38,032 nucleotides of DNA from Ramlibacter sp. (GTDB lineage: Bacteria > Pseudomonadota > Gammaproteobacteria > Burkholderiales > Burkholderiaceae_C): NCBI RefSeq assembly GCF_029866045.1, contig NZ_JARXAB010000122.1, forward strand, positions 1 to 38,032, given 5' to 3'. This document shows, one piece after another, positions 74 through 24,111 of the stretch. Made by a program: the position numbers and the translations under genes. The notes below the pieces were generated by a model. It ran no database searches. It was not told the origin of the DNA and worked only from the letters and a program-made list of their open reading frames with translations. Positions within the stretch are counted from its first letter, which is position 1; every line of letters starts with the position of its first letter.

Positions 74-161
74 GGAGGCGTGGCAGAGTGGTCGATTGCA
101 CCGGTCTTGAAAACCGGCAACGGGAAACCGTTCGTGAGTTCGAATCTCACCGCCTCCGCCA
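74..161 (+). tRNA. tRNA-Ser (anticodon UGA)
   Basis: This is an 88-nt class II tRNA. The acceptor arms GGAGGCG (74-80) and CGCCTCC (151-157) pair exactly. They are followed by discriminator G and an encoded CCA (159-161). The anticodon stem CCGGT/ACCGG encloses loop CTTGAAA, giving anticodon TGA, which reads UCN serine codons. The variable arm between the anticodon stem and the T arm is long, as expected for tRNA-Ser. The T loop TTCGAATC is present. A TAGAAT hexamer at 57-62 could be the -10 box; I see no good -35. The 3' end (148-163) is repeated at 9281-9296, so this gene is a candidate integration target. Confidence 0.97.
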
Positions 162-163
162 GA
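148..163 (+). repeat. tRNA-Ser 3'-end copy, left member of a 16-bp direct repeat
   Basis: The last bases of tRNA-Ser including CCA, plus two following bases (CACCGCCTCCGCCAGA), occur again in the same orientation at 9281-9296. A repeat of a tRNA 3' end in direct orientation is the usual mark of attL/attR left by a tyrosine recombinase. No integrase gene lies between the two copies, so the att assignment is an inference. Confidence 0.6.
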
Positions 164-175
164 TCGCAAAAAAAA

Positions 176-197
176 ACGCGCCAGCTGGCGCGTTTTT
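176..197 (+). terminator. Rho-independent terminator of tRNA-Ser
   Basis: A perfect 18-bp palindrome (176-193; arms ACGCGCCAG/CTGGCGCGT) is followed by a T run and preceded by an A run. It begins 15 bases after the tRNA CCA end. The flanking A and T runs would let it work in both directions, so it could also stop transcripts of the minus-strand gene that ends at 221. Confidence 0.85.
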
Positions 198-220
198 CAT
201 TACCTGGCGCAAGACCGCTC

Positions 221-1213
221 TTAGTCGACCTGCAGCTTTGCAAGGGTCACGATGCCGCGCCACTTCTCGATCTCACTGCGCGTGAAGGCGGCGAATTGCG
301 CGGGGGTGGTGTTCTCGACCTCAAAACCCATCTTGGCGTATTGCTCGCGAACCTCGCGCAGTTGCAGGACGCGGTTGATGTCTGCGTTGAGCTTTTCGAC
401 GATGGCTGCAGGCGTGGCAGCAGGCGCGTAGACGCCATACCAAGTTTGCACCTCATAGCCTTTGAGACCGGACTCTGCGATGGTGGGCAGCTCCGGGGCC
501 AAGGAAAAGCGCTTGTTTGTCGTGACGGCGAGCGCGCGCAGTCTGCCGCTGCGAACATGTTGCAAACCTTCGAGGCCGCCGAAGTGCACGTGCACGTCAC
601 CGGCCATCAGCGCGGTGTAGGCGGGGCCGCCGCCGCTGAACGGCACGTGCACGATATCGGTTTCTGCAATCTGGTTGAACAGCCCAGCGGCCAGGTGCGT
701 GGAGGTGCCGCTGCCCGAAGAGGCATAGTTCAGCTTGCCCGGCTGCGCCTTGGCCAGAGCGATCAATTCGGAGATGGACCGCGCTTGCACCGACGGATGG
801 ATGTACACGATCAAGGGCGAGGAGGTGAGCTGCGCCACGGGCGCAAAGGCCTTCTCCGTGTCGAATGGCAGCTTCTTGTACAAGGTGGCGTTGATGGCGT
901 GCGCCGGCGATGCAATCAAGAAGGTGTAGCCGTCTGCCGGCGCCGATGCGACAAACCCGGCCCCGATCGTCGAGCCAGCGCCCCCCTTGTTGTCGATCAC
1001 GACCGTCTGCTTCCAAAGTTCGGAGAGCTTGGGGATGATCACGCGCGCATTCGCGTCAACCGCGCCGCCCGGCGGGAAACCGACGACGCAGCGCAGCTGG
1101 CGCGAGGGATAGCCGGCTGCAGGCTGTGCTGCGCCCGGCAGCCAGGCAAACGCCGGCGCAAGTGCCGCAGCCTTCATTAGCTGGCGGCGGTATGGATCGT
1201 GCGAAAGGCTCAT
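221..1213 (-). CDS. Bug/TctC-family periplasmic solute receptor 1
   Basis: This 330-aa protein belongs to the tripartite tricarboxylate receptor (Bug) family of periplasmic receptors for organic acids and other small carboxylates. The N-terminus has twin arginines (YRRQLMK) and a hydrophobic stretch ending near PGAAQPAAG, so export may be through Tat or Sec. After it come the family marks: YPSRQ, the VVGFPPGG loop, VIDNKGGAG and ADGYTFL. The C-terminal IEKWRGIV segment is also typical. The ATG at 1213 follows a GGAGA Shine-Dalgarno. A longer reading frame upstream was not used because it lacks a signal-like start. It is the last gene of a minus-strand set behind the dioxygenase (61 bp) and CoA-transferase, so it probably binds the substrate of that pathway. 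No TctA/TctB membrane partners are present. Confidence 0.93.
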   Translation of the reverse strand: MSLSHDPYRRQLMKAAALAPAFAWLPGAAQPAAGYPSRQLRCVVGFPPGGAVDANARVIIPKLSELWKQTVVIDNKGGAGSTIGAGFVASAPADGYTFLIASPAHAINATLYKKLPFDTEKAFAPVAQLTSSPLIVYIHPSVQARSISELIALAKAQPGKLNYASSGSGTSTHLAAGLFNQIAETDIVHVPFSGGGPAYTALMAGDVHVHFGGLEGLQHVRSGRLRALAVTTNKRFSLAPELPTIAESGLKGYEVQTWYGVYAPAATPAAIVEKLNADINRVLQLREVREQYAKMGFEVENTTPAQFAAFTRSEIEKWRGIVTLAKLQVD

Positions 1214-1274
1214 GGTTGTCTCCAGATCATTAGAAGAATGGCGGCGCCAAGCCGCAGGGGTGAGATCGTCAAGG

Positions 1275-2282
1275 CTAGGTCGATGGCACATCACGCGAAA
1301 GCGTCACAGGCACACCCCCATAGTCACCAAAATGCGGCCCGACCGGCCGCTGCAGGTGGGTGCGTATCCAGCCGCGGACCATGCAGCGCTTGCGGTCGGC
1401 CTCGGGCCAGTCCTGGTACGCCGTGCGCGAATGCAGCGTGGTGTAGTTGTTGATCAACTGCATGTCACCTCGCTCGAGCTCCATGTCGAGGCGCAAGGCT
1501 GGATCCTCCGCGAGGGCATCCACCGCGGCCAGTGCTGCGATCTCGGCCTCGGTGTAGGGCGCACCATGCTGCATGGACGTCTGGTAACTGTTTCGGGAAT
1601 AGCGCACCGACAAGACGCCGTCCTGAATGTGAAATACCGGCACGCGCTTGATGCTCGAATCACCGCCCTCTTCCAGGTTCAGGTAGTTCATGCCCTCCAG
1701 CAGCGGCGCCACCCGCTCGGGCTGGCGCTCGATCAACTGGTTGTAGGCCGACACGGCGCTGGCAATGCTGCTGCGCCCACCCGACATGGCCGGCCGCAGG
1801 CACAGCAGCCCCACCAGGTCGCAGCGGTCGGTATGAAATTTGAGTTCGGCGTTCGTCTGGTAACCGCGCACGCGGCGGCCCCCCGCCGGGCGGCCGGTAT
1901 CCATCACATCGCACAAGCGATCGCCATAGGAGTTCTGGCTGATCGGGCGCCCCAGCAGGTTGACGATCAACCAGTAACAGGCCCGCAGCATGGCGTCATC
2001 CAGATCGTGCGAGAGGCCGCGCAGGAGCACGAAGCCACGGCCCTCCATCACCTCGCGCTCAATGCCCGCCAGGTAATTGCGGGCAGCAGGCAGGCGAGAC
2101 AGGTCCAGCGCGGTCCCCGTGAGCGCGGTCAGACTTTCATTGCGAATCGCGCGCGCAGCGGCCTCGATCTCTTGGCGCACCTCGGCTGGCAGTACCTGAA
2201 TCCATTGGTCGGTACGCGTGGCAACCTCGGATGCAAGCCAGGCACTGGGGTGTGAGATGGTGGAACGTGAAGGTGCGTTCAT
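1275..2282 (-). CDS. TauD/TfdA-family Fe(II)/2-oxoglutarate dioxygenase
   Basis: This 335-aa cytosolic protein resembles TauD/TfdA dioxygenases, which hydroxylate an organic substrate with Fe(II), O2 and 2-oxoglutarate. The 2-His-1-Asp facial triad is visible: HTD within LKFHTDRCD, and a distal His in NYTTLHSRTAY. The Arg of the following VRGWIRT segment is the likely 2-oxoglutarate anchor. The length is slightly above classical TauD (about 280-300 aa). I chose ATG 2282; a TTG 24 bases upstream is possible. It lies 54 bp after the CoA-transferase and 61 bp before Bug 1 in the same orientation, so the three are probably co-transcribed. The substrate cannot be read from sequence. Given the neighbours, hydroxylation of a carboxylic acid is more likely than sulfonate cleavage (inference). 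Confidence 0.88.
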   Translation of the reverse strand: MNAPSRSTISHPSAWLASEVATRTDQWIQVLPAEVRQEIEAAARAIRNESLTALTGTALDLSRLPAARNYLAGIEREVMEGRGFVLLRGLSHDLDDAMLRACYWLIVNLLGRPISQNSYGDRLCDVMDTGRPAGGRRVRGYQTNAELKFHTDRCDLVGLLCLRPAMSGGRSSIASAVSAYNQLIERQPERVAPLLEGMNYLNLEEGGDSSIKRVPVFHIQDGVLSVRYSRNSYQTSMQHGAPYTEAEIAALAAVDALAEDPALRLDMELERGDMQLINNYTTLHSRTAYQDWPEADRKRCMVRGWIRTHLQRPVGPHFGDYGGVPVTLSRDVPST

Positions 2283-2336
2283 GTCGGGGAAGCCTCTGCG
2301 GGACAAATCAAGGAGCGGCAGGTCAGCATCGTTTCA

Positions 2337-3644
2337 TCAACGCACGACGCCTGCGTTGACGAGTTGTGCCGTTTCGGACTCACTCACACCGAGCTCGCGC
2401 AGAACCTCGGCGGTGTGTTCGCCCAGTTGCGGCGGCTGCAAGCGCAAACCCGGCGTACGCCCTTCGATCTCGATGGGCAGTGTGGGAAGCCGGGTGTGGC
2501 GGCCATCCTGCAAACGGGTGTCCAGCATGCGCCCGCCGGCATTGAGCTGCGGGTCATCGAACAAATCACCTGGTCTGCGCACAGGAGAAAACGGAATGCC
2601 GATGCGGTCGAAAAGCGCGAGCAGGTCGGACGCGCTCCGCCCCGCGATCAGGTCCTTGATGAGGGGCCGCAGCGTCTCTCGGCGCTGGACGCGGTCCTCG
2701 TTGCTGCGGTACTGAGGATCCTCGCGCAAGTCGGGCCGACCGAACTCGGTACAGAAAGCCTTCCAGTGCGCATCGGAAGTGAGGCCGACAAAAATGGGCA
2801 CACCCTCGCGCGAGTCGAAGGTTTCATAAATGCCCCACGCGCTGTCGCGATTGGGCATAGGCGGCGCCGGCTTGCCAGTGATCGCCTCGCCGGCCATGTG
2901 TTGTGCCACCAGCATGGCCGAGGTCTCGTACAAGGAACTCACCACCTTGCGGCCGCGTCCGTCTGCATCCCGCTGGCGCAGCGCAGCCAGGATGCCGACC
3001 GTTCCCATCACGCCCCCCATGATGTCCACGACAGAGGAGCCCGCGCGCAGCGGCCGCCCTGGCGGGCCGGTCATGTAGGCGAGCCCGGTCATGTACTGGA
3101 CGATTTCGTCCAAGGCCGGGCGGCGCTCATAAGGTCCGCTGAGAAAGCCCTTGAGCGAGCAGTACACCAGGCGCGGGTTGATGCGCTGCAACTCTTCCCA
3201 GCCCAGGCCCGCACGGTCCATCGTTCCCGGACCGAAGTTCTCGATCAGCACGTCTGACTGGGCGATCAGCCGGCGCACCAGCGCCAGGCCCTCCGGGGAC
3301 TTGATGTCCATCGAGGCGCTGCGCTTGTTCCGGTTGAAGTAAGAGAAGAAGCCGCTGGCAAAGCCGCGCAGGCGCCGTGTACGGTCGCCTTCGATCGGCT
3401 CCACCCGGGTGACGGTGGCTCCCAGATCGGCCAAGACGAGCCCGCAGCAAGGTCCCATGACCGTGTGCGTCATCTCCAAGACACGGATGCCGGCCAGAGG
3501 GAGCGGCCCGGCCGCATCGGGCTGTTTCGATGTCGATGGACTGCCCGTTGGACTTGCTGTCTGGCTCTCAGTTGGGCTTTTTACTTCTGCGGCAGTCAAG
3601 TCTTCTCCGGTGTGTGCTTGTCGATACGGTTCACGCGCGCCCAT
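2337..3644 (-). CDS. CaiB/BaiF-type (family III) CoA-transferase
   Basis: This 435-aa protein moves CoA between acids. The core starts at LPLAGIRVLEMTHTVMGP, with the family signatures LADLGATVTRVEP, FNRNKRSASMDIKS and LIENFGPGTM. The Asp of ALDEIVQ is at the position of the Asp that forms the acyl-aspartyl anhydride in family III. Before the core is a Ser/Thr/Pro-rich stretch of about 48 residues that is not part of the family. The ATG at 3644 has no clear Shine-Dalgarno. A TTG at 3599, with GGAGAAG just upstream, is an alternative that removes part of the tail. It is the first gene of the minus-strand arm, divergent from the MmgE/PrpD gene. It would activate a free acid to its CoA thioester for the lyase on the other arm (inference). 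Confidence 0.93.
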   Translation of the reverse strand: MGAREPYRQAHTGEDLTAAEVKSPTESQTASPTGSPSTSKQPDAAGPLPLAGIRVLEMTHTVMGPCCGLVLADLGATVTRVEPIEGDRTRRLRGFASGFFSYFNRNKRSASMDIKSPEGLALVRRLIAQSDVLIENFGPGTMDRAGLGWEELQRINPRLVYCSLKGFLSGPYERRPALDEIVQYMTGLAYMTGPPGRPLRAGSSVVDIMGGVMGTVGILAALRQRDADGRGRKVVSSLYETSAMLVAQHMAGEAITGKPAPPMPNRDSAWGIYETFDSREGVPIFVGLTSDAHWKAFCTEFGRPDLREDPQYRSNEDRVQRRETLRPLIKDLIAGRSASDLLALFDRIGIPFSPVRRPGDLFDDPQLNAGGRMLDTRLQDGRHTRLPTLPIEIEGRTPGLRLQPPQLGEHTAEVLRELGVSESETAQLVNAGVVR

Positions 3645-3676
3645 TGCGGTTGAGTGTGTCCGCGCGAGTGTACTTG

Positions 3677-3690
3677 AACTGGATCCAGTT
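3677..3690. promoter_or_regulatory. 14-bp palindrome in divergent promoter, candidate GntR operator
   Basis: AACTGGATCCAGTT is a perfect 14-bp inverted repeat in the 143-bp gap between the divergent CoA-transferase and MmgE/PrpD genes. A TTGAAC at 3674-3679 overlaps its left edge and could be a -35 box, but no convincing -10 was found. FCD-type GntR proteins usually bind short palindromes of this size in the promoter of the operon they belong to. The GntR gene is second in the plus-strand arm. The assignment is an inference from location and symmetry. Confidence 0.5.
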
Positions 3691-3787
3691 TTAGACTCAG
3701 TATTGCATCTAGTAGTAGACTCCGGCTCAGCCCGCTATCGGACTGAGCGCTGCCCCCCTCACCCCACCCCCCCACTCGCCTGCCTAC

Positions 3788-5233
3788 ATGTCATTGCAAC
3801 CCTCTGCCGAGCTCATCCCCGGTGGCTTCGCCGCTGAAGCGGCCGCCTTCATCGAGACCCTGAGGTCGGACGCACTGCCGACCCTGGCCGTGGAGCGTGC
3901 GGTCGACGCGGTGACCGACACGCTGGCCTGCATGGTGCTGGGCGCCAGGCAGCCGCTCGAGGCGCCACTGCGTCGATCCTTGTTCGGCGGCGCACGGGCG
4001 GAGGCCGGCGGCCAGGTGCTGGGACGGGTGCTCGCCCAAGAAGGCTGGGCCGATGCAGGCGCCGAGACCCTGGGCACAGCGGCCCTGTACTTGGGCACCC
4101 TGGCCCACGCCGCAGATTTCGACGACATCAGCCACCCGGCCTACTGCCACGCCACCGCACTCCTCTTGCCGCCGCTGCTGGTGCGCGCGGCCGCAGCCGG
4201 CCAGGGCGGCCCCGCGCTGATACGGGCCTATCTCGTCGGGGTCGAAACCATGGGGCAGCTCGGACGTCGGCTGAACACGGCGCATTACGAAGCGGGCTGG
4301 CATGCCACCTCCACCCTGGGCACGCTGGCCGCAACGGCGGCGATCGCAGCACTGGATGGACTGACACCGGCGCAGACTGTCACCGCCCTGGGTATCGCGG
4401 CATCCCTGGCAAGCGGCGTGCGGCAGAACTTCGGCAGCATGACCAAGCCGCTGCATGCCGGTCTTCCCGGGCGTTCGGCCATCCTGGCCACGCGGCTGGC
4501 GGCGGAGGGCTTGACCAGCGCGGCCCAGGCGGTCGACGGGCGCTTCGGGTTTTTCCGCACCTTCGGCGGCGAAGCCGAAGCGGGCCATGCCAAGCCCTGG
4601 GGAGGCCCGCTGGAGGTGCTGACCGAAAACGGGCTGGCGCTCAAGGCCTATCCCTGCTGCGCGGCCACGCATGCGGCCATCGACGCGGCGCGCGCGCTGG
4701 CGGGGCGTCATGCGCACCAGGCGCTGCGACACGTGCGCGTGGGCGTCTCGCGCTTTGCCATCGAGCCGCTGATTTACCTGCGCCCAACAACGCCGCTGGA
4801 AGCCAAGTTCTGCATGCCCTATTGCATCGCTGTCGCACTGCATGACGGCAACGTCACGCTGGACAGCTTCACGCCGGAGGCCATCCAACGCCCGCAGATC
4901 GCCGCCCTGATGGACCGCATCGTGATGGAGGTGGACGAACGCGTCGCCAATGACCGCGAATTCGCCAGCGTGCTCGATGTGTCGCTCGAAGGCGGCGGCA
5001 CCGATGTGGAGCGCGTCGACGTCGCCAGCGGAAAGCCGGCACGCTGGATGACGGCGTCAGACCTGGCGCACAAGTTCTTCTCGTGCTGCGGGCAGGGCCG
5101 CGAACACGCACCCACCCGCGCCCTTTTTGACCAAGCGCGGCAACTGGCTGGCGCCGCTTCCCTGCGGCCCTTGCACACCGCGCTGACCGAGTCGCTCGCA
5201 CTGGCCGTCGACGCGGGCGGAGGCGCAAGGTGA
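3788..5233 (+). CDS. MmgE/PrpD-family protein
   Basis: This 481-aa protein belongs to the family that includes 2-methylcitrate dehydratase PrpD, cis-aconitate decarboxylase and related cofactor-free (de)hydratases. Family marks are the N-terminal helical start with DTLACMVLGA, the HAADFDDISHPAYCHAT segment, GIAASLASGVRQNFG, KPLHAGLPGRSA, the LKAYPCCAATHAAIDA segment and a C-terminal domain ending near KFFSCCGQGREHAP. The ATG at 3788 has no obvious Shine-Dalgarno. It is the first gene of the plus-strand arm, and its stop overlaps the GTG of the GntR gene (GTGA). It probably hydrates, dehydrates or isomerises a branched dicarboxylic acid or related compound. Decarboxylation is also possible in this family. 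The substrate is not deducible. Confidence 0.92.
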   Translation: MSLQPSAELIPGGFAAEAAAFIETLRSDALPTLAVERAVDAVTDTLACMVLGARQPLEAPLRRSLFGGARAEAGGQVLGRVLAQEGWADAGAETLGTAALYLGTLAHAADFDDISHPAYCHATALLLPPLLVRAAAAGQGGPALIRAYLVGVETMGQLGRRLNTAHYEAGWHATSTLGTLAATAAIAALDGLTPAQTVTALGIAASLASGVRQNFGSMTKPLHAGLPGRSAILATRLAAEGLTSAAQAVDGRFGFFRTFGGEAEAGHAKPWGGPLEVLTENGLALKAYPCCAATHAAIDAARALAGRHAHQALRHVRVGVSRFAIEPLIYLRPTTPLEAKFCMPYCIAVALHDGNVTLDSFTPEAIQRPQIAALMDRIVMEVDERVANDREFASVLDVSLEGGGTDVERVDVASGKPARWMTASDLAHKFFSCCGQGREHAPTRALFDQARQLAGAASLRPLHTALTESLALAVDAGGGAR

Positions 5234-5985
5234 CAGCCAAGCGGCCGCTGGAAGCCGAACGCGGCTTTTTCATCGAGGAGACCTACGAGCGGATCCGGCA
5301 AGATATCTTGCGCCACCGCCTCAACCCTGGGGTGAAACTGGTGCCGGACCACCTGGCCACTTCACTCAAGGTCTCTCGCACGCCGGTACGGCAAGCGCTG
5401 GAGCGCCTTTGCCAGGAAGGCTTTGTGCAGCACATCCCGGCGCGCGGCTACTTCGTGGCCGAGCCGCCCCGCAGCGAGATCCGCGACCTCTATGACGTGC
5501 GCTTCGCGCTGGAGGTACGCGCGCTGGAGCTGGCCTTCGAACGTGGGTTCGCGCCCGAAGCGGTCGACGCGCTCGAGGTCATCCACGAACGATACAAAGC
5601 CTTGATCGAGAACCCGAGCGCGGCGTCGCGCTCGCGCATCGACCAGGAGTTTCACCTCGCGCTGGCCGGCCTGACCGACAACGAGTTGCTGGTGGAGATG
5701 TTGCGAGGCATCTACGACCGTCTGAGTTTTCGGCGCCGCAGCGACGGCTACTGGTTCTGGGCGGACCGTGGCCTGCGAGGCGCCGCCGGAGCGCGCGAGC
5801 ATTCGGCGCTGCTGGCCTCCCTGCGGGCCGGCGACCGTGAGACCGCGCTGGCGGCGCTGCGCAGCCACCTGGCGGAGGCCCAGGCCAATTACGAGCAATT
5901 CATTGCCTCGGTCGCCGCCGAAGAGAACGACCGCTTGCTGCCCGGCCCGCGGGCCGCTGCGCCGCATCCCCAGGAAACGCAATGA
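5230..5985 (+). CDS. GntR-family regulator, FCD subfamily
   Basis: This 251-aa one-component transcription factor has a winged helix at about residues 14-78 (YERIRQDIL, SRTPVRQALERL, the wing ARGYFV). A C-terminal all-helical FCD domain follows (DVRFALEVRALELAF, DQEFHLALAGLTDN, REHSALLASLRAGD). The Asp and His residues spread through it are those that usually bind a metal and a carboxylate effector. The start is GTG 5230, inside the stop of the MmgE/PrpD gene, preceded by GGAGGCG. Its end overlaps the next start by ATGA, so it is inside the operon it likely controls. The probable target is the palindrome at 3677-3690. Members of this subfamily are mostly repressors released by the pathway substrate; that role is inferred here. 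Confidence 0.93.
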   Translation: MTAKRPLEAERGFFIEETYERIRQDILRHRLNPGVKLVPDHLATSLKVSRTPVRQALERLCQEGFVQHIPARGYFVAEPPRSEIRDLYDVRFALEVRALELAFERGFAPEAVDALEVIHERYKALIENPSAASRSRIDQEFHLALAGLTDNELLVEMLRGIYDRLSFRRRSDGYWFWADRGLRGAAGAREHSALLASLRAGDRETALAALRSHLAEAQANYEQFIASVAAEENDRLLPGPRAAAPHPQETQ

Positions 5986-7079
5986 CCCCCAAGACCTACC
6001 CCCGCATCCTGATCACGGACGAGACCCTTCGAGACGGGCTCCAGATCGAGCGACTCGGCGTCACTGTCGATGAGAAACTGGAGTTGCTGGACAGGCTCGC
6101 AGACGCCGGCCTCGCACGCATCGTCGTGGGCGCCTTCGTCAATCCGAAGTGGAGCCCACAGATGGCCGAGACCACGGAGCTGGTGCGGCGCATCCGGCCC
6201 CGGGAGGGCGTGCAGTACTTTGCGCTGGCACTGAACGACCGAGGACGCGAGCTCCGGGCCGCCTGGGCCCCGCCTCTGACGGTCGAATCCTTGCCCATGA
6301 CACTCCTGCACTTGTGCGAGACCTTTCTGCGCCGTAACACCAACCGCAGCCTGGAAGACCAGGAGCGCAATTGGCGACGGCCGGTGGAGTTGGCCGCAGC
6401 AGCCGGCGTCACCGAGGGCATCATGGGCATTTCAGCCGCTTGGGGATCCAACTGGCACGGCCCATTCAGCCACCAGGAGCGCATGGACGCGCTGCAGCGA
6501 CAGTGGGACGCATGGCACGCGGCTGGCATTTCGGTGCGGCGCATCGAGCTGGCGGACCCGATGGGTTGGAACCGTCCCGATGCCGTGGCTCAAGACCTGC
6601 AGGCCATACTCGCGCGCTTCCCGGAGGTCACCGAATTCAGACTGCACCTCCACAACGCGCGCGGCATGGCCATGCTGTCCGCTTGGGAAGCGGTCAAGGT
6701 GCTTGACCAGCGCCACACGCTGCTTCTGGACAGCGCAGTGGGAGGTATTGGCGGCTGCCCCTATTCGGGCAATGGTCAGGCCAATGGCATGCTGCCGACC
6801 GAGGACTTGGTCCACCTGTTGCATATGCTGGGCATTCCGACCGGCGTGGACCTGGACCGCCTGATCGGCGCTTCACACAGGTTGGCAGAGATCCTGGGTC
6901 GTCCGCTGCATTCGCAGGTCGCACTCAATGGCCCCTTTCCGCAGGGCGATCGGCTCTATCCTGAATCAGTCCCAGCGGTCTACACCTTCCGCGAAGCGCA
7001 GCATTTCCGGCTGGGTCCGTCGGTCTATGAAGGCAACCCGACACCCTGGCTGAGGGCACCCAAGGGAGAGGCGTCATGA
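5982..7079 (+). CDS. HMG-CoA-lyase-like enzyme (HMGL/DRE-TIM family)
   Basis: This 365-aa TIM-barrel lyase is expected to cleave a 3-hydroxy-3-methylglutaryl-CoA-like thioester. The start TDETLRDGLQ carries the catalytic Arg-Asp pair, RLHLHNARGMAM holds the two metal-ligand His, and GGIGGCPYSGNGQANG holds the mobile-loop Cys and the Asn ligand. There are two departures from true HMG-CoA lyase. The protein is about 40-60 residues longer. The Glu before the FVxPKW motif (E72 of the human enzyme) is Val here (VVGAFVNPKWSPQM). The acyl group is therefore probably not plain HMG. ATGA overlaps join it to the GntR gene and the SDR. With the CoA-transferase it could form an activation-and-cleavage pair like those for itaconate or citramalate (inference). 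Confidence 0.88.
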   Translation: MTPKTYPRILITDETLRDGLQIERLGVTVDEKLELLDRLADAGLARIVVGAFVNPKWSPQMAETTELVRRIRPREGVQYFALALNDRGRELRAAWAPPLTVESLPMTLLHLCETFLRRNTNRSLEDQERNWRRPVELAAAAGVTEGIMGISAAWGSNWHGPFSHQERMDALQRQWDAWHAAGISVRRIELADPMGWNRPDAVAQDLQAILARFPEVTEFRLHLHNARGMAMLSAWEAVKVLDQRHTLLLDSAVGGIGGCPYSGNGQANGMLPTEDLVHLLHMLGIPTGVDLDRLIGASHRLAEILGRPLHSQVALNGPFPQGDRLYPESVPAVYTFREAQHFRLGPSVYEGNPTPWLRAPKGEAS

Positions 7080-7861: not shown

Positions 7862-7874
7862 AGGCCTACCGCCC

Positions 7875-8054
7875 ATGACCGATCCCAGGGAACCCTCCGC
7901 CGAAGAAATCATGCAACTGAAGCAACATCTGAACCGGTTTTTCGATCGGCTGGATGAACGCCATACATGGCGGCTGCTGGAGCAGCAACTGGTGAGCGAG
8001 TTCAAGTTCGAGGGCTTGCCTACCGGCCGTGAAGCCGAGAGAGGGTCCGCATGA
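7875..8054 (+). CDS. 59-aa hypothetical protein in the MmgE-FAH operon
   Basis: This small ORF lies between the SDR and the FAH-family gene. It starts ATG 7875 and its stop TGA overlaps the FAH ATG (ATGA at 8051). It reads MTDPREPSAEEIMQLKQHLN and continues as a charged amphipathic helix (RFFDRLDERHTWRLLEQQL) with a short polar end. There is no signal peptide or membrane segment. The packing, in the same coupled style as the other operon genes, supports real translation. By eye the FFDRLDERHTW-x-LLEQQL pattern recalls the first helices of SnoaL-like/NTF2-fold proteins, but it is far too short for that fold. It could be a truncated relative or a small accessory protein. I do not recognise a function. 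Confidence 0.6.
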   Translation: MTDPREPSAEEIMQLKQHLNRFFDRLDERHTWRLLEQQLVSEFKFEGLPTGREAERGSA

Positions 8055-16719: not shown

Positions 16720-17605
16720 AGCAATCCTGGCGCTCTGCTTGGCTGCAGCGGGTCAGGCACAAGCCATCACGGTTTTTGCCTGTGAACCCGAATGGGCATC
16801 ATTGACCCGGACGCTGCTGCCGGAGGTGAGCGTACGAACAGCGACCACGCACCTTCAGGACCCCCACCACATCGAGGCACGGCCCTCACTCATTGCACAA
16901 ATTCGTGGCGCAGACTTTGCGATCTGCACGGGCGCTGAACTGGAAGCAGCTTGGCTGCCCATGCTTCAGGCAAGAGCTGGCAACCCCAAGGTGCAAAACG
17001 GTCAGCCCTCGATGTTTTTTGCCGCCCAGCATGTGGAACTGATTGACCCCTTCAAGGGCACCATCACACCGTATTCCGGGGATGTGCACGCAAACGGCAA
17101 TCCGCATTTCCACACGGACCCCCGCAGGGTCTTGCAAGTGGCCAAGGCATTGGCCGCGAGGCTTGGCAGCTTGTACCCAGAGAAAAAGTTGCTAGTTAAT
17201 CAAAACCTGGCCAATTTCGAGTCTGAATTGCAGGCCAAGATCGCCGTTTGGGAAAAGCAGTTGCAGGCCCTCAGAGGTCGATCGGTCATCACGCAGCACG
17301 CCTCGTTTGGCTACCTGTGGCCGTGGTTGGGTCTCAAGCCCGTGGCAGATCTGGAGCCCAAGCCGGGCATGCCGCCCACGGCCGCCCACCTTGAAAAAGT
17401 GCTTGCGATCAGCAAAACACAACCGCCCATCGGCATCATCATTGCCCAGCACCATGACCCCAAGCCCGCGCGCTGGCTGGCGGGCAGCATGGGGATGCCA
17501 TCGAAGCTGTTGATCATTCCTGCCACTGTGACAGACGATCAGCCGGGAGCGATCACCCGATGGTTCGATCAGCTCGTGACGCAGGTGACTGGCCTGGCGA
17601 AGTAA
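16703..17605 (+). CDS. ZnuA-like periplasmic metal-binding receptor
   Basis: This 300-aa cluster A-I substrate-binding protein of a metal ABC transporter has a signal peptide (MRILTKAILALCLAAAGQAQA) and the fold marks of ZnuA/TroA. Candidate metal ligands are the His residues of LQDPHHIEARPS, GNPHFHTDPRR and VITQHASFGYL, with an acidic or His residue in AQHHDPKPA. The His-rich flexible loop of E. coli ZnuA is absent. The start is GTG 16703, which overlaps the preceding gene by 17 bases; GGAGCACAC lies in front. The permease gene starts 6 bases after its stop. Zinc as the metal is inferred from the neighbouring Zur-like regulator; manganese is the main alternative. Confidence 0.88.
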   Translation: MRILTKAILALCLAAAGQAQAITVFACEPEWASLTRTLLPEVSVRTATTHLQDPHHIEARPSLIAQIRGADFAICTGAELEAAWLPMLQARAGNPKVQNGQPSMFFAAQHVELIDPFKGTITPYSGDVHANGNPHFHTDPRRVLQVAKALAARLGSLYPEKKLLVNQNLANFESELQAKIAVWEKQLQALRGRSVITQHASFGYLWPWLGLKPVADLEPKPGMPPTAAHLEKVLAISKTQPPIGIIIAQHHDPKPARWLAGSMGMPSKLLIIPATVTDDQPGAITRWFDQLVTQVTGLAK

Positions 17606-17611
17606 AACACG

Positions 17612-18334
17612 ATGGAGACCTGGTTCATCTTCCCCGCCCTTGCGCTGATTGCAGGAATCATGGCGCTCACACCCTTGGGAACCCAGGTTCTGAGGCGGGG
17701 TGTCGTGTTCATCGATCTGGCCGTTGCACAAGCTGCCGCTGCAGCCGTGATTTGGCTCAATTTCGCCCTCCACATTGATTCGCCTCTCGTCGACCAGCTT
17801 GCCGCCACCTTGGGCGCAGTGGTGGTGAGCCTGGGTGTCGCCTGGGTCGCGCGAAAGTGGAGCCAGCAAAGAGAAGCGCTGATCGGTTTGATCTATGTCG
17901 CAGGGGCGTGTATGGCCCTGTTGGGCGCAAGCCTGCACCCACATGGCCGCGAAAAGCTATTTCACTTGTTGGCTGCGGACGTTCTTTGGGTGGACTCGTT
18001 CAGCATCGGCGCGCTCTTGCTGGCCGCGCTTGCCGTCCTTGCGCTGCGGCGAAAGGGCTGGCTTGCCCATGATGTTTTTTTCTATGCCGCCTTTGCTGTC
18101 ATTGCGAGTGTCGCGGTACCAGCCTTGGGCCTGTTTCTTGTCTTCGCCAGCCTGATAGCACCCGCGCTTTGGATCGAGCGAGGGTTGAGGCCCTGGGCGG
18201 CCATGGTGGCAGCCTCAGTTTCTTGCCTGCTCGGTCTGCTTTTTTCTTGGGTGGCCGACACACCGAGCGGGCCCACGGTGGTGATGGCACTGGCTGCTTT
18301 TGGAGTCTGCGCCCTGTTTCGTCGGCAGGGCTGA
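17612..18334 (+). CDS. ZnuB-like metal ABC transporter permease
   Basis: This 240-aa integral membrane protein of the ABC-3 family has about seven hydrophobic segments. Marks are the start FPALALIAGIMALTPLGTQVLRRGVVFIDLAVAQAAA and the central QREALIGLIYVAGACMALL. The later KLFHLLAADVLWV and ALGLFLVFASLIAPAL correspond to the coupling region and metal path. It is somewhat shorter than E. coli ZnuB (about 260 aa). It starts six bases after the receptor gene. No ATP-binding ZnuC gene lies before or after it in this window, so the ATPase must come from elsewhere. The gene ends 143 bases from the convergent HupE-like gene, with no clear terminator hairpin. Confidence 0.88.
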   Translation: METWFIFPALALIAGIMALTPLGTQVLRRGVVFIDLAVAQAAAAAVIWLNFALHIDSPLVDQLAATLGAVVVSLGVAWVARKWSQQREALIGLIYVAGACMALLGASLHPHGREKLFHLLAADVLWVDSFSIGALLLAALAVLALRRKGWLAHDVFFYAAFAVIASVAVPALGLFLVFASLIAPALWIERGLRPWAAMVAASVSCLLGLLFSWVADTPSGPTVVMALAAFGVCALFRRQG

Positions 18335-18477
18335 GCGTCTGGGTCTGGAGATTTGCCCTCTGGCTTGGCCCCCGCACCCGCCCCCGACCCGCACCCTGAG
18401 CGAAGGTCTGAAACCTGAGCAAGCGCATACGATGCTAGGCAGCAGCAGCGATTCGCGGATGAACCGTTCGGTCTGAA

Positions 18478-19680
18478 CTACCCCAGCCAACCCAGGCGCT
18501 GCAGCGTCCAAAAAAGGCCCAGCACCACAATGACCATCGACCCGCCTGAGACCAACACCCAGCGGTAAAACCGTGTCTGGCGAAGGATCCAGGCCAGGGG
18601 AAAGAACACCGCGACGATCGCCAGCTGCCCCAACTCAACTCCCAGATTGAAACCACCCAAGGCAGCCACCAGTGCGCTGGCGGGCAGTCCCAGGTCCAGC
18701 AGCACGCTGGCAAAACCAAAGCCATGTACCAGGCCGAATAAGAAGGCCAGACGCCAGCGCTTGACGGCACTGAAGCCCAAAAGGTTGTTCAAGGCGGCCA
18801 GCACCACCGACAAAGCAATTGCCGGCTCCACCAGATCGGCGGGCGGTGTGAGCCAGCCGGTGATGGTCAAGCCCAGGGTGATGGAGTGGGCCACGGTGAA
18901 GGCGGTGACGACTGCCAGCACGTCCAGCACGACGGGGCGGGCTTGCGGCGCCGCTTGCCAGTGCACAACCCTTTGGCGAGACGGTTGCAAGGGCGCCAGC
19001 AACAGCAAGCTGAGCAAAAAAACGATGTGATCGATGCCGATCCAGATGTGCCAAACCCCCTCGACGACATAACGCCCGAAGACCCGCCAGGGATGGCTAT
19101 CGGAGGCACTGATCTCGACCTCGGGTCTTTCGGGGCTCAGCAAAGCACTGCTCTGGTAGCGGGAGAAATCCACCTTGAGCAAGCCACGGTGCAGGTTGTC
19201 CTGGGAAAAAATCAGGTCGTAGCGAAGCGTCAAGCGGGTATCGTCCAAGGAGCTCGACGCGCCAGGACACAGCGGCGTCCACAAGGCGCTCAAGTAGGTA
19301 CCGTCGGCATGCTGGCTCGCCTTCAAGTCGACCGGGCCCAAGGTGCAGCGCTGGCCCGATGCGCCCAGCGAAATTCCTTGTGCCAGCCAAGCACTGAGCT
19401 CGGCACTGCGCGCCTGCGTCTCGGCCCATGTGACTTGGCCATCACGATCGCGGTCGAGATCGAACAGCAGGTCCAGGTCACGCACATGCAAATCCGCGCG
19501 CAGCGTCAATTGCTGCGACGGCATGCTGAGGGTGAGGTAGCTGTTGCTGCTCGAGTGTGCCCAGGCCAGACTGCCAAAGAGCAGGCTCACGAGCGCCACA
19601 CAGGCAAGGGCCACCTGGTGCCATGAGAGAAGACGGCTCCGGAAAGGCCAGCGCGCGGTCAAGGGCCAGCGCGCGCTCAT
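18478..19680 (-). CDS. HupE/UreJ-family membrane protein with an EF-hand loop
   Basis: This 400-aa protein has a signal peptide (ALVSLLFGSLAWA, cut before HSSS) and a periplasmic N-terminal domain to about residue 200. The C-terminal membrane part is of the HupE/UreJ_2 type, with HIWIGIDHIVFLLSLLL, VAHSITLGLTITGW and LFGLVHGFGFASVLL; the spaced His/Asp are the family's putative metal ligands. HupE proteins carry nickel or cobalt, but many such fused homologues have no proven substrate. In the soluble part, residues 76-87 (DRDRDGQVTWAE) match a full EF-hand calcium loop. ATG 19680 overlaps the stop of the upstream TPR gene by ATGA, so the two are co-translated. The nearby zinc genes face it and may be unrelated. 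Confidence 0.85.
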   Translation of the reverse strand: MSARWPLTARWPFRSRLLSWHQVALACVALVSLLFGSLAWAHSSSNSYLTLSMPSQQLTLRADLHVRDLDLLFDLDRDRDGQVTWAETQARSAELSAWLAQGISLGASGQRCTLGPVDLKASQHADGTYLSALWTPLCPGASSSLDDTRLTLRYDLIFSQDNLHRGLLKVDFSRYQSSALLSPERPEVEISASDSHPWRVFGRYVVEGVWHIWIGIDHIVFLLSLLLLAPLQPSRQRVVHWQAAPQARPVVLDVLAVVTAFTVAHSITLGLTITGWLTPPADLVEPAIALSVVLAALNNLLGFSAVKRWRLAFLFGLVHGFGFASVLLDLGLPASALVAALGGFNLGVELGQLAIVAVFFPLAWILRQTRFYRWVLVSGGSMVIVVLGLFWTLQRLGWLG

Positions 19681-20930
19681 GAGCGACCTCCCTTCCAACT
19701 CGGGTGAGCCCGCAGTTGCCGCAGGAGCGGGCTCAATTGCGGGTCGGTGTAGCCGGATTTTTCAGCCCACTCCACCACGGGCGCTGCCGCCTGCGCCTGC
19801 CCCAGCGCCAGAGCGGCCTGTGCAAACAGCACTGCGTCGGGAGGGTCTTTTTGCAGCTGCCAGTTCTCGATAGAGAGCGCAAGGCCTGCCGCCAGGTCCT
19901 GCCCGTAGGCAATTTGATAAATCAATTTGGGCCGCTCGATCAGGGCCTCTTGGCGCAGCGCTTGAGCGCGCAAGCGCGCATCCATCTGGCTGGCCAGCCG
20001 GGCTTCATCCGCATCTTTCAGGCCGCGGCTCGCCAGCAGGGCCTGCATCAGCAGGGCATCGGTCAAGCTGCCCATGTCGGCTTGATTCATGGCGACCGCC
20101 TTCGCCTGCCGGTACTGGCCTTGCTGATTGAGCAGGTCGGCCATGGAGAGCCTGAGCAGGTGCGACCGCGGACTGGCCTTCAAACGACCCTCCCACACGG
20201 CCAAGGCCTGCGCAGGCTGCCCGGCCACGCGGTGCGCCTCGCCCAAGTGAAATCCGATCCAGTCTTGGGACGAACCGTCCTGGTAGTTCGGCGACCGGAT
20301 CGCCCGCATCAGCATCTGCACCGCAGGAAGCGGCTGCCCTGTGCGGTATTGCAAAACCGCGCGGTAAACATCCGCTTCTTCTTTGCCAAGCAGCCGGGCC
20401 ATCTCTTCGCTGTCTTGCCTGGCGGACGCCAGATCTGCCTGCAGCAAATGCAGGGCAAAGCGCCAGGACCAGAACTCGGCTCGACGAGGCTCCAGGGCAA
20501 TGGCCCGATCGATGTCGATCAAGCCCGCCTTGAAGTCATGAAAACCCTGCTGGACCAGGCCGCGCAAAAAGTACCCGTCGGCGGGCAATTCTGCCGCCTG
20601 CCACCAGGGACCCAACGCCGCTTTGGCCGAGCCGAACCAGCGCAAATCGCCTTCGGTGAGCCCCAAGGTGAACACGGCGCGGGCATAGGCCAAAGCGGCA
20701 TTGAGGTCTTGGGGCTGCGCACGGCGGGCCTGATCGAGCGAACGCAACTGAGCCTGCTGTCCGCCCTGCGCGTGCACCGATGCAGACAGCACCACCGCCG
20801 CCGCGGGCGGCAAATACCTATCTTGTGCTGCGGCCGGTGCGGCCATGCCTGCAGCCCCCAGAAACCAAACGATCCCCAGCAGCCAAGTGGGTCGGGCGGG
20901 CGCATTCGCTGGCAGCTCTGGCTTTTCCAT
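19677..20930 (-). CDS. Exported TPR-repeat protein
   Basis: This 417-aa protein has an N-terminal hydrophobic export segment (WLLGIVWFLGAAGMAAPAAAQ) followed by helical repeats. Several TPR-like units are visible (ALAYARAVFTLGLTEGDLRW, YFLRGLVQQGFHDFKAGLID, AIALEPRRAEFWSW, LGEAHRVAGQPAQALAVWEG, LLNQQGQYRQAKAV). TPR proteins are protein-interaction scaffolds, so this one may assemble or support the HupE-like protein, to which it is translationally coupled. I chose ATG 20930 because the signal sequence follows it. A longer frame to 21107 would run through the promoter and start of the divergent small gene. No enzyme motif is seen. Confidence 0.78.
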   Translation of the reverse strand: MEKPELPANAPARPTWLLGIVWFLGAAGMAAPAAAQDRYLPPAAAVVLSASVHAQGGQQAQLRSLDQARRAQPQDLNAALAYARAVFTLGLTEGDLRWFGSAKAALGPWWQAAELPADGYFLRGLVQQGFHDFKAGLIDIDRAIALEPRRAEFWSWRFALHLLQADLASARQDSEEMARLLGKEEADVYRAVLQYRTGQPLPAVQMLMRAIRSPNYQDGSSQDWIGFHLGEAHRVAGQPAQALAVWEGRLKASPRSHLLRLSMADLLNQQGQYRQAKAVAMNQADMGSLTDALLMQALLASRGLKDADEARLASQMDARLRAQALRQEALIERPKLIYQIAYGQDLAAGLALSIENWQLQKDPPDAVLFAQAALALGQAQAAAPVVEWAEKSGYTDPQLSPLLRQLRAHPSWKGGRS

Positions 20931-20971
20931 GATTTGAGTGTGCCTAAATTGCTTGGTAATATATGTGCGTG

Positions 20972-21000
20972 CTGTCAAACGTTGGCACTTCGCCCATAAT
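20972..21000 (+). promoter_or_regulatory. Sigma-70-like promoter of the small secreted protein gene
   Basis: CTGTCA (20972-20977) and CATAAT (20995-21000), with a 17-base spacer, match four and five of six consensus positions. Transcription would start near 21007 and run into the 50-aa gene at 21036. The surrounding DNA is AT-richer than the window average. The TPR gene starts the other way at 20930, so this is a divergent promoter region. No promoter for that gene stood out. Confidence 0.5.
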
Positions 21001-21035
21001 TTCTTTGACAGCCCCCCCACCTCAAGGAAATCCCC

Positions 21036-21188
21036 ATGAAATTCGTGATGACCCTGATAGCTTCCGCTTTCGTGCTCGTGTCGGCACCCTCTTTCGCAGG
21101 CAGCCATAGCGGCGGCAAGATGGGCGAGACCAAAGTTGACTGCACCAAAAAGGAAAACGAAAAGAACGCCGCCTGCGTCAAGAAGTAA
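21036..21188 (+). CDS. 50-aa secreted protein with two cysteines
   Basis: This small gene starts at ATG 21036 with AAGGAA eight bases upstream and stops with TAA at 21188. It begins MKFVMTLIASAFVLVSAPSF followed by A, a standard signal peptide with likely cleavage after SFA. The mature part is about 29 residues (GSHSGGKMGETKVDCTKK, then a short Lys/Asn/Glu-rich run to ACVKK). It has two Cys twelve residues apart that could form a disulfide, and many Lys. A promoter (20972-21000) and a strong terminator (21208-21232) make it a complete single-gene unit. I do not recognise a family. Envelope stress or metal-related roles are possible but unsupported. Confidence 0.8.
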   Translation: MKFVMTLIASAFVLVSAPSFAGSHSGGKMGETKVDCTKKENEKNAACVKK

Positions 21189-21207
21189 TCTTCTTGCACA
21201 GGGTCAA

Positions 21208-21232
21208 AACCCCCTCTCGAGGGGGTTTTTTT
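21208..21232 (+). terminator. Rho-independent terminator of the small secreted protein gene
   Basis: The stem AACCCCCT (21208-21215) pairs with AGGGGGTT (21220-21227) around a four-base loop and is followed by a run of T to 21232. It lies 19 bases after the stop codon at 21188. This is the clearest protein-gene terminator in the window. Confidence 0.88.
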
Positions 21233-21282
21233 ATGGACGAAGGTCCGAAGCGCTGGGCCTGAGGATCGATCGGGGGACTAGG

Positions 21283-21373
21283 CGATGTTCGCCCGCTCAG
21301 TTCAACCGACCGCGTCCATCTCTGCAGGCCCTTGCGCCAGCACGCGGGGAAATTGGCGTAGCCCATGCCCACG
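21283..21373 (-). pseudogene. Decayed 3' end of a Bug/TctC gene
   Basis: This stretch aligns without gaps over 21301-21373 to 23161-23233, the 3' end of the Bug gene at 23137-24111. By hand I count about 61 of 73 identical. The match continues to 21283 with one missing base. On the minus strand it still reads GMGYANFPACWRKGLQRWTR then SVELSG, against GMGYANFPEYLRQDLQRWKR and SVELSG in the intact gene. The shift beyond SVELSG removes the normal stop. No upstream part of a Bug gene is present. Together with the intact tail it flanks phoD. The rest of the 21233-21408 gap shows nothing I recognise. Confidence 0.82.
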
Positions 21374-21408
21374 CATCGGCATTGTGCAGTGCGAATGCGT
21401 ACGCGAGC

Positions 21409-23028
21409 TCAAATGCGCTCGACAGCCGGTTTCCCGATCTGCACAGCGAAGCTGGCGAGCGTGCTGATCCCGGAGTCGCTCTTGGTGACATCGTCCACCA
21501 CTCGCAGAGTCGTTTTTAGCCCAGCGGGTGTCAGTTCGCAGACGCCGTAGCCGCGCTTCTCGTTTTCTGCAAAAACATAGTGCGGATTTTTGGCCAGTCT
21601 GGCGTCCATCACTTCACGCGTGGCAGGGGTCGGTCGGGACGTGATGCTGGTGCCACAAAACTCCGAGGCCAACACTTTGCTGCGTGGCTTCGAATAGTCG
21701 GCCTTAACGTGACCGACCCAATTGGCGTGGACATCACCACCCAACACCACATTGCTGGCGCTGCTATTGGCCAAGCTGGCCAGAAGGCGCTCGCGAGCGG
21801 CGGGATATCCGTCCCAACCATCATTGGAGATTCGGTTGCTGGCGGCGAAGGGACCGATCAAGGTGGCTTGGCCGAGCACCTGCCAGGCGGTGCCTTTGTC
21901 ACTGAGTTGCTGGGCCAACCAATTTTCCTGGGCCTTGCCCAGCATGCTTCGAGCGGGGTCGTTGAGCGGAGCGCAGGCTTTGGGATCGATCACAGCGGAA
22001 CCCGGACGGTCTGCTTGATTGCAAACCGCAGGATCTTTGTACTGGCGAGGGTCGAGTAGCATCAGGTTGGCCAATTGCCCCCAGCGCACGCTCTGGTAGA
22101 CACGCACCTCTGCCGGCTGGGCGGCTCGATCGACCAGGCCGGCGAGCGCTTTGGTGAGTACGCTGGCGCGCACGGGCATGTGCTCGTACCACGCTTGGTA
22201 GGCGGCCGCGCGACGTTTGGGGAAATCGGTGCTGGGTTCAGCGGCACGGGAAAAGCCCACGGTTTCACCGGCATAGTCGTTCTGCACCTCATGATCGTCC
22301 CAGGTGAAGAGCCATGGGCAGGCCGAGTGCGCGGCCTGCAGGTCAGCGTCGCTTTTGTGCAGCGCGTAGCGCTGGCGGTAGTCGCTCAAGCTTTGCACCC
22401 AGTTGCCGCTGGCCGTGCGCAGGGCATTGGGCGTGCCGGGGTACTCATAGATGTAGTCGCCGAGGAACAGGACCAAGTCCAGCTGCTCTTGGGCCAAGTG
22501 GCGGTAGGCCGAGTAATACCCGTGCTCCCAATGCTGGCAGCTGGCATAGGCCAAGCGCAACTTATCGACTTTGGCGCCCGGAGCAGGGAGAGTACGGGTG
22601 CGACCGGTCTGGCTTGTGAAGTCGCCAGCATGAAAGCGGTAGAAGTACCACCGATCAGGCTCCAGGCCCGTCACTTCCACATGCACTGAATGCGCCAATT
22701 GCGCTGTGGCTTGGCTGGTGCCTTGCTTCACCATGCGCTGAAATTTGTCGTCGTGCGCAACTTCCCAGCGCACGGAGGCGCTTTCTACCCCCAAGGCAGC
22801 AAAAAGCCCGCTGGGCAAAAGGCGAGTCCATAGCACGACGCCATCTGGCGTGGGCGAGCCGCTGGCGACGCCCAGCGTGAACGGATTGGCGCTGATTCTG
22901 GCTTGGGCCCAACTGGCGCCGGGCCACCACACGCCTGACGCGCCGGCCGCTGAGGTGGTGGCGAGCTTGAGCAGGTCTCTCCGGGAGAGCGGAGTGCTTG
23001 ACCTCTTGCTTGGAGAATATTTATTCAT
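21409..23028 (-). CDS. phoD: PhoD-family alkaline phosphatase/phosphodiesterase
   Basis: This 539-aa secreted metallophosphatase carries a Tat signal at its start (SRRDLLKLATTSAAGASG), in line with export of a folded metalloenzyme. An N-terminal PhoD domain (FTLGVASGSPTPDGVVLWTR) comes before the catalytic domain. That domain has ASCQHWEHGYYSAY, LFLGDYIYEY, FTWDDHEVQNDYAG and LGGDVHANWVG, which hold the Asp, Cys, Tyr and His residues used to bind calcium and iron in PhoD. Such enzymes release phosphate from mono- and diesters. ATG 23028 was chosen because the Tat motif follows closely; a GTG at 23085 is possible. The gene is a single unit between an intact and a decayed Bug 3' end, which suggests it was inserted there. 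No Pho box was identified. Confidence 0.92.
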   Translation of the reverse strand: MNKYSPSKRSSTPLSRRDLLKLATTSAAGASGVWWPGASWAQARISANPFTLGVASGSPTPDGVVLWTRLLPSGLFAALGVESASVRWEVAHDDKFQRMVKQGTSQATAQLAHSVHVEVTGLEPDRWYFYRFHAGDFTSQTGRTRTLPAPGAKVDKLRLAYASCQHWEHGYYSAYRHLAQEQLDLVLFLGDYIYEYPGTPNALRTASGNWVQSLSDYRQRYALHKSDADLQAAHSACPWLFTWDDHEVQNDYAGETVGFSRAAEPSTDFPKRRAAAYQAWYEHMPVRASVLTKALAGLVDRAAQPAEVRVYQSVRWGQLANLMLLDPRQYKDPAVCNQADRPGSAVIDPKACAPLNDPARSMLGKAQENWLAQQLSDKGTAWQVLGQATLIGPFAASNRISNDGWDGYPAARERLLASLANSSASNVVLGGDVHANWVGHVKADYSKPRSKVLASEFCGTSITSRPTPATREVMDARLAKNPHYVFAENEKRGYGVCELTPAGLKTTLRVVDDVTKSDSGISTLASFAVQIGKPAVERI

Positions 23029-23136
23029 CTCGTCAGTATATTTATTTTGACCACTGTACGAGGATGGCTTGCCGCGCAAGTCCACGGCCTAGTGAGCACT
23101 CCCGCCTGAAGCCACTACGGGTCACCGCGAGAGCGG

Positions 23137-24111
23137 TCAGTCGATCTTCGCCCCGCTCAGTTCAACCGACCGCTTCCATCGCTGCAAGTCCTGGCGCAGA
23201 TACTCGGGGAAATTCGCGTAGCCCATACCCACGATCTCGGTGCCGTCGGACTGCACCCGCTCCCGGAACGCCGGATCTGCCAGGATCTTTTGAACCTCCT
23301 GGTCAATTCGACGACCCAACTCCGGCGGGAACTTGGCCGGGGCGATGATGCCGAACCAGGACACCACCTCGAAACCCGGGACGGTCTCGCCCACGGTGGG
23401 GACAGTGGGCAGGGCGTTGTTACGCTTAGGGCCGGTCACCGCAAGGGCACGGATCTTGCCGCCCTTGACCACGCTCACCGCGGTGGAAAGGGTCGGGAAT
23501 CCGAACAGCGCCGAACCGCCCATGACCGAGGTGATGATTTCTGGCGCCCCGCGATAAGGGACGTGCACCGCGTCCACGCCGGCCATTTGCTTGAACATTT
23601 CTGCACACAGGTGGGCGCCACTGCCATTGCCGCCCGATGCGTAGTTGTACTTGCCTGGCTCCGCCTTCAGGGCCCGAATCAGATCAGCCACCGTCCGCAA
23701 AGGCGAATCGGCCTGCACCACCAGCGCATGCGGGAGCGCGTAAGTCAGATTGACGGGGGTGAAGTCATTGACCGGGTCGTAGGGGACCTTGCGGTAAAGC
23801 GCAGGGTTGATCGACAAGCTGCTGGTACCCAAGCCAATGGTGTAGCCGTCACCCGCGGACTTGGCGATTGCCTCCAGGCCGATATTGCCGCCTGCGCCGC
23901 CTTTATTGTCGATGACCACGGGCTGACCCAGCACCTGCGTGAGGCGCTCGCTCAGGCCCCGTGCCATCACATCAGGCGCGCTGCCGGGGATGAAGGGCAC
24001 GATGAATTTGATCGGCCGGTTGGGCCAGGCCTGGGCTTGTGCCTGGGCACCCGGCACCACAGTGGCGCCCAACAGGGCAGCTCCGGAGGCGATGAAATCG
24101 CGTCTGATCAT
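23137..24111 (-). CDS. Bug/TctC-family periplasmic solute receptor 3
   Basis: This is a 324-aa Bug receptor. The N-terminal IRRDFIASGAALLGATV is a Tat-like signal with cleavage near AQAQA. WPNRPIKFIVPFIPG, VVIDNKGGAGG and SAGDGYTIGLG follow, then YASGGNGSGAH and the terminal QRWKRSVELSGAKID. ATG 24111 with GGAGACAAT in front is a firm start. It lies 35 bases downstream of the sulfatase gene on the same strand, so the two are probably co-transcribed. Its ligand may be an organic acid taken up for the same pathway. Its last 90 bases are repeated in decayed form at 21283-21373. Confidence 0.93.
   Translation of the reverse strand: MIRRDFIASGAALLGATVVPGAQAQAQAWPNRPIKFIVPFIPGSAPDVMARGLSERLTQVLGQPVVIDNKGGAGGNIGLEAIAKSAGDGYTIGLGTSSLSINPALYRKVPYDPVNDFTPVNLTYALPHALVVQADSPLRTVADLIRALKAEPGKYNYASGGNGSGAHLCAEMFKQMAGVDAVHVPYRGAPEIITSVMGGSALFGFPTLSTAVSVVKGGKIRALAVTGPKRNNALPTVPTVGETVPGFEVVSWFGIIAPAKFPPELGRRIDQEVQKILADPAFRERVQSDGTEIVGMGYANFPEYLRQDLQRWKRSVELSGAKID

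Follow-up and report, generated by a model that had tools for sequence, protein, structure and literature searches.

The stretch of DNA analysed here, called the window throughout, is the whole of contig C54 (38,032 bp) of the Ramlibacter sp. genome G000, and with a probability that we put at about one half it records two known kinds of insertion side by side: a genomic island (island A) at the 3′ end of a tRNA-Ser gene, and gene additions anchored in the 3′ ends of protein-coding genes, represented in the window by a phoD-like gene behind a Bug/TctC gene and elsewhere in the genome by genes standing behind hrcA and behind an MFS gene. An initial annotation had noted that the tRNA-Ser, zur and Bug genes of the window each have a second, displaced copy of their 3′ end (a tail), and had proposed a common process for them. 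All three tails exist, with coordinates correct within a few bases, and in 3/3 pairs the displaced copy lies downstream of the gene and in the gene's own orientation. They are not one phenomenon, however: the repeat measures 16 bp at the tRNA but about 100 bp at the protein genes.

Island A at the tRNA-Ser gene and its zur remnant

The target of the island, tRNA-Ser with the anticodon TGA (74–161, forward strand; ARAGORN; 59.9 bits with the Rfam tRNA model), ends in the left copy of a 16-bp repeat (148–163, forward), CACCGCCTCCGCCAGA, which comprises the last 14 bp of the gene followed by GA. The right copy, the displaced tRNA tail, stands at 9281–9296 (forward); the 16-mer has two copies in the window (0 of 100 shuffles), and these bound 9,133 bp. 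Between them lies island A (164–9280), whose scanned open reading frames (ORFs) are catabolic and regulatory genes assigned by Pfam: TctC/Bug, TauD, CoA-transferase III, MmgE/PrpD, GntR, HMGL-like, SDR and FAA-hydrolase. No integrase was found among the eight ORFs scanned by Pfam, a 59-codon ORF near 7876–8054 being left out. In the sister genome G006, a member of the same genus that was used for the main comparison (contig C263), the site is exactly empty: the homologues of window 2–163 and 9281–21368 are adjacent, and tRNA-Ser leads straight into the latter, which is colinear at 95%.

Genomic islands at tRNA 3′ ends typically bring a direct repeat of the tRNA end, an integrase and accessory cargo. 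Island A resembles them in its repeat of the tRNA 3′ end, its exact empty site and its accessory metabolic cargo, and differs from them in that no integrase was found and in the zur fragment inside its right end; it has the footprint of a genomic island but lacks the integrase. The difference between the two genomes at tRNA-Ser is established by the empty site in G006; we infer a gain in G000, and not a loss in G006, from the rarity of relatives of the HMGL-like protein, which has matches at E ≤ 1e-60 in only 3 of the 398 other family genomes drawn (42–46% identity). A donor of the island was not found.

No further copies of the tRNA tail occur in the downstream DNA (0.7 to 15 kb) of 20 other genus genomes, G006 included. 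At the tRNA-Ser loci of the genus genomes the first 4 kb downstream are common to 18 genome pairs, against 34 pairs upstream. A second match of window 132–201 (G000 C41 and G072 C38) was considered as another tRNA-Ser tail and rejected, both being tRNA-Asp with a similar terminator. Separately, two genomes (G062, C7 near 330114; G023, C17 near 338793) show a tRNA-Ser-like stretch (78–79% to the query) with a tyrosine-recombinase match about 1 kb downstream.

Inside the right end of island A lies a broken copy of the zur 3′ end (9028–9141, reverse strand), followed up to the right repeat by a filler of 139 bp (9142–9280, 48% GC). Intact zur, of the FUR family, stands at 15087–15467 (reverse), beyond a block B (9297–15061, forward) that encodes a rhodanese, a Cys/Met PLP enzyme, a RidA-like protein, TctC/Bug, an unknown protein and an alpha/beta hydrolase. 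The remnant matches the zur 3′ end at 84% identity over 114 columns (E 3e-27), the homology ending 9 bp after the end of the stop codon, and it contains a frameshift and two in-frame stops. In G006, block B and zur follow in the same order, block B directly behind tRNA-Ser, and there is no second copy of the zur tail. As G006 carries block B and zur without the remnant, block B did not separate zur from its tail, and the pair was rejected as a simple insertion boundary. The remnant belongs to the unit 164–9280, bounded by the tRNA tails, which as a whole is missing at this place in G006; one island event can therefore explain the interlocking tRNA and zur pairs, for which the initial annotation had called for at least two. 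Its view of displaced tails as marks of insertion is borne out by the tRNA pair and by the MFS pair described below, both with empty sites in G006, but not by the zur pair, which is no boundary of a block B insertion.

Among 60 genus genomes, window 9000–9318 has matches in G000 and G006 only, in G006 solely at the zur gene and the tRNA junction, and the 139-bp filler has no other match either there or in its own genome. The remnant is identical to the zur of G000 in 90 of 111 columns, to that of G006 in 87 of 113 and to that of the next relative (locus L082) in 61 of 104; of the nine sites that distinguish the zur genes of G000 and G006, it has the G000 state at seven, the G006 state at one and neither state at one.

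Regarding the surroundings of zur, one ORF of block B (13578–14195, 205 residues) is present in G006 too and has no Pfam match. The zur-linked zinc cluster (15556–18334) comprises a porin, ZnuA and ZnuB, with no ATPase gene among the neighbouring ORFs scanned; matches to these three genes keep their order at five other loci (L082, L083, L085, L086 and L088).

Proposed gene additions behind Bug, hrcA and MFS genes

The second kind of insertion is seen most completely outside the window. At locus L192 of G000, an MFS gene and a 120-bp copy of its end enclose two genes, one for an RHH antitoxin and one for a ParE toxin. In G006 nothing separates the MFS gene from the flank that G000 has behind the displaced tail, which constitutes an empty site, and the displaced tail is in its native position because it is contiguous with this flank; both insertion and native tail position are demonstrated here. 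The MFS gene is also present in G072, where the diverged flank is uninformative on the insert. At locus L174 of G000, hrcA is followed by a GST-like gene and then by a 106-bp copy of the hrcA end. While the hrcA stretch is matched in 56 of 59 genus genomes, the GST gene and the tail are matched only in G000 and G072; G006 has hrcA without insert and tail and with another flank (550 bp compared), which supports an insertion.

In the window, the intact Bug/TctC gene (23137–24111, reverse strand; Pfam) is separated from a displaced copy of its 3′ end (21280–21377, reverse) by nothing but a phoD-like phosphatase gene (21409–23085, reverse; Pfam PhoD) that runs in the direction of Bug. The displaced tail matches the gene end over 98 bp at 84% identity (E 8e-22). 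Its flank is common to G006, where the tail stands at 17036–17135 of C263, which supports its native position; phoD has no DNA match at the corresponding place there. Beyond this tail G006 has other genes, and homology to the window resumes only at the 3′ end of an FAD gene (27842). Window 21378–27841 and G006 C263 17136–24288 have no DNA match with each other, both borders of this stretch being gene 3′ ends. In G072 (C223), window 23137–27024 is colinear at 90%. Changes common to the Bug tails of G000 and G006 against the intact copies were not seen in the alignment by eye; for this reason the Bug gene was perhaps still whole at this site in the common ancestor of the two, to be displaced independently in each lineage.

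The three cases share several features. The repeats extend over 95 (Bug), 106 (hrcA) and 120 (MFS) columns at 83–90% identity, and the homology runs out 2 to 20 bp short of the last base of the stop codon. In 3/3 cases a single gene or module forms the cargo and is oriented like the host gene. No motif common to the junctions was seen by eye. The substitutions distinguish the copies: against G006, the last ~250 bp of the intact genes differ mostly at third codon positions (11/11 differences in hrcA, 7/9 in MFS), whereas the displaced and intact hrcA tails differ at 4 first, 6 second and 5 third positions and by insertions and deletions. By these differing patterns, the intact copy has remained under constraint and the displaced tail is decaying. 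The tail differences of Bug (3 first, 4 second and 4 third positions) and of zur (6, 4 and 6) have, like those of hrcA, what reads as the pattern of decay.

Mechanism and rival explanations

For Bug, hrcA and MFS, recombination anchored in the tail of the host gene is probably the mechanism. Incoming DNA containing a tail and the gene next to it would pair with the recipient's tail, while its other end would be joined inside the recipient's own tail; alternatively, a circle of tail and next gene could integrate by one crossover. In either case the host gene would remain whole and the recipient's old tail would be left to decay. We favour this route over a dedicated enzyme because of the features shared by the three cases, the lack of a junction motif, the absence of any match to the PF00239 recombinase in G000, G006 and G072, and the presence of the ComEC family in all three genomes, which for its part is compatible with uptake of linear DNA. 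PF00589 has three matches in G000 (C67, C98 and C152), none of them on the window contig. Island A would have entered at the tRNA-Ser 3′ end, duplicating 16 bp and carrying the broken zur tail at its right end as a ragged end of the incoming DNA; its donor would have been a close relative of G000 with island A between tRNA-Ser and zur. A more general formulation is tentative: an integrase-free 3′-end add-on, by which single genes or modules would be appended behind stop codons in the host direction, even at core genes such as hrcA, with a duplication of about 95–120 bp.

Several observations weigh against this combination of an island and tail-anchored additions. The 16-bp repeat lies exactly at the tRNA 3′ end, the classical mark of a tyrosine integrase and a coincidence under tail recombination, and the island A difference may instead stem from a deletion between the 16-bp repeats in G006. 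The proposed history leaves the 139-bp filler unexplained, and the last 111 bp of the zur of G000 differ from G006 at 8 positions, slightly above the gene body. The displaced and intact MFS tails differ at 2 first, 2 second and 6 third positions, nearer to constrained divergence than to decay. No donor with host and cargo genes adjacent was found: the GST gene has matches in 7 of the 398 other family genomes (E ≤ 1e-40), with hrcA within 1.5 kb on each side in 0/7. ComEC by itself is no demonstration of competence, and the assemblies of G000 and G006 are both incomplete.

As a possible but less probable explanation, elements of the integrase type that had lost their integrase could account for all tails: each would be an attachment site at the end of a gene, for which the element would bring a substitute 3′ end. 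Such elements are known at ends of protein genes, as e14 at icd, and inserts of one gene are small for them. Among islands, one report describes locations at the 3′ end of trmE, the 3′ end of yicC and the 5′ end of dusA (PMC8409611). The exact position of the 16-bp repeat together with the exact empty site, the end of homology close to the stop codon at all four protein genes and the downstream position of the tail in every case agree with such elements. The small cargos do not; neither do the missing integrase among the scanned insert genes (in a genome whose recombinase matches are the three to PF00589), the lack of a common junction motif by eye, nor the intact hrcA and MFS genes, whose last ~250 bp are no more diverged from G006 than the longer alignments.

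Rather unlikely is a history in which the zur pair is a true boundary after all: the ancestor would have had the order tRNA-Ser, island A, zur, block B would have entered at the zur 3′ end with a tRNA tail, and G006 would later have lost island A and the remnant between the 16-bp repeats. In its length, its divergence and its end close to the stop codon, the remnant does look like the other displaced tails, and in L082 tRNA-Ser (anticodon CGA) and zur are convergent neighbours about 340 bp apart. Yet this history takes a gain and a loss in place of a single gain, the island is rare by its HMGL-like protein, block B runs against zur whereas the other cargos run with their host genes, and the remnant sides with the zur of its own genome over that of G006.

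Deletion of former tandem paralogues, which the initial annotation had named as the alternative, is improbable as a general account. It is refuted for MFS, where G006 has an empty site and keeps the flank in its place, and it is hard to reconcile with hrcA, which gives one strong match in each matching genus genome (six candidate places scored in each) and has its insert only in G000 and G072. For Bug it can still be entertained: Bug/TctC genes are numerous, four being present in the window by Pfam, and a second Bug gene may have been lost. An artefact of the presumably metagenome-assembled genome can be nearly dismissed, for although the assembly (3.85 Mb in 182 contigs, 93% complete, 5% contamination) is the only one with the island and MFS junctions, the hrcA insert and tail recur in G072, window 9281–21368 with most of the Bug tail is colinear with G006, and the displaced tails are diverged from their genes rather than identical copies.

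Survey of gene tails and relation to known systems

The search for gene-tail repeats suggested by the initial annotation was run on 80 random contigs out of the other 181 of G000, of which at most the first 20 kb were taken (1,062,312 bp). Direct repeats of 40–400 bp were sought in which a gene end was paired with a copy lying outside called genes, the pairs having to lie within one contig and within its 20 kb taken. Genes were called with a codon-model caller and the rules were revised again; 60 contigs went through one run and the remaining 20 were processed with looser printing. As the rules changed after the MFS pair had been inspected, the contigs of the survey are a random choice but its rules were not set blind. 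It returned three tails, namely hrcA, MFS and a metK pair at L181; with the window included, the tails number five. The metK pair, two 62-bp copies at 98% identity whose 188-bp spacer contains no called gene, is doubtful and is not counted as a cargo insertion. Heads, that is, repeats of the opposite gene end, were represented by two rows that a single repeat array (L245) produced and by a weak head-like pair at L304 (75% over 72 columns), and an earlier run on 40 of the 80 contigs had also given one gene-internal pair (L182). The search thus added two gene-cargo pairs; tails outnumber heads in G000, but not significantly, and we claim no excess because three tails against one or two heads are too few.

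Control stretches were searched likewise. In G081 and G063, twenty stretches (400,000 bp) yielded one internal pair but neither tails nor heads. A single tail row, which did not survive inspection, came from the 19 stretches (314,161 bp) taken around tRNA-Ser in other genomes of the genus, and the two overlapping stretches searched in G006 (38,766 bp) yielded no row. At 47 zur loci, sorted by hand from their titles as Betaproteobacteria or close (740,846 bp), there were no tails and two head rows from one locus, while the 32 zur loci outside this group (545,923 bp) returned one head, one internal pair and three tail rows, the latter all from L139 and uninspected. Rows from L182, L194, L200, L245 and L304 of G000, from L067, L210, L220 and L223–L227 of relatives, and from the zur loci L124, L127, L139, L142, L146, L148 and L159 received no closer inspection. 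One candidate, L064 (G073), was rejected as a tail case, being an intergenic repeat whose neighbouring ORFs look miscalled. This imperfect palindromic repeat of about 130 bp occupies two seemingly intergenic places (12512–12645 and 17061–17195 of L064). A dense array of short repeats with a spacing of about 67 bp, perhaps CRISPR (L229:1–4476, corresponding to G063 C1:3700001–3704476), was excluded from two of the survey runs.

Footprints of this kind are already reported from other bacteria. Insertion with long target duplication was reportedly described by Nobusato and colleagues in 2000 and by Furuta and colleagues in 2010. According to a later paper, the insertion of some restriction-modification systems is accompanied by target duplications that are long, variable and of the order of 100 bp (PMC3874152); others name the pattern in Helicobacter pylori (PMC1643837), mention it (PMC4978471, PMC3154945, PMC3031569) or cite the work (PMC2654758, PMC2614495). 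The Bug, hrcA and MFS cases are alike in that direct repeats of about 100 bp derived from the target flank the insert, and for two of them an insert-free allele exists in a relative (G006 for MFS; for hrcA likewise G006, with a different flank). They differ in their cargo, which is PhoD, GST and RHH/ParE instead of restriction-modification genes, and, as far as the citing papers convey the published cases, in that here a gene end is duplicated, with the cargo behind it and oriented alike. Our literature search on long target duplication gave no title naming this lineage or gene 3′ ends, and we recognised no closer precedent.

Two further processes offer partial parallels. In homology-facilitated illegitimate recombination (PMC3240628), one homologous and one illegitimate join could give the order gene, cargo, tail; in contrast, no donor molecule is known for the Ramlibacter inserts. 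Merodiploid formation by transformation (PMC3784515) can leave the target gene whole and produce duplicated stretches bordered by repeats, but the duplications there amount to about 100 to 900 kb and the Ramlibacter tails to about 95–120 bp. What may be new is the regular position at 3′ ends with ordinary cargo in the host direction. If this holds true, insertion with long target duplication would extend from restriction-modification systems to ordinary metabolic genes, the scar would mark gene gain without transposases or integrases, and decaying tails would be countable scars from which recent gains could be read in one genome and roughly dated by their decay. For the window itself the history is corrected in that a single island event can cover the interlocking tRNA and zur pairs.

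Several other direct repeats in the window have their source in two nearby FAD-binding paralogues (27826–29556 and 30669–32378).

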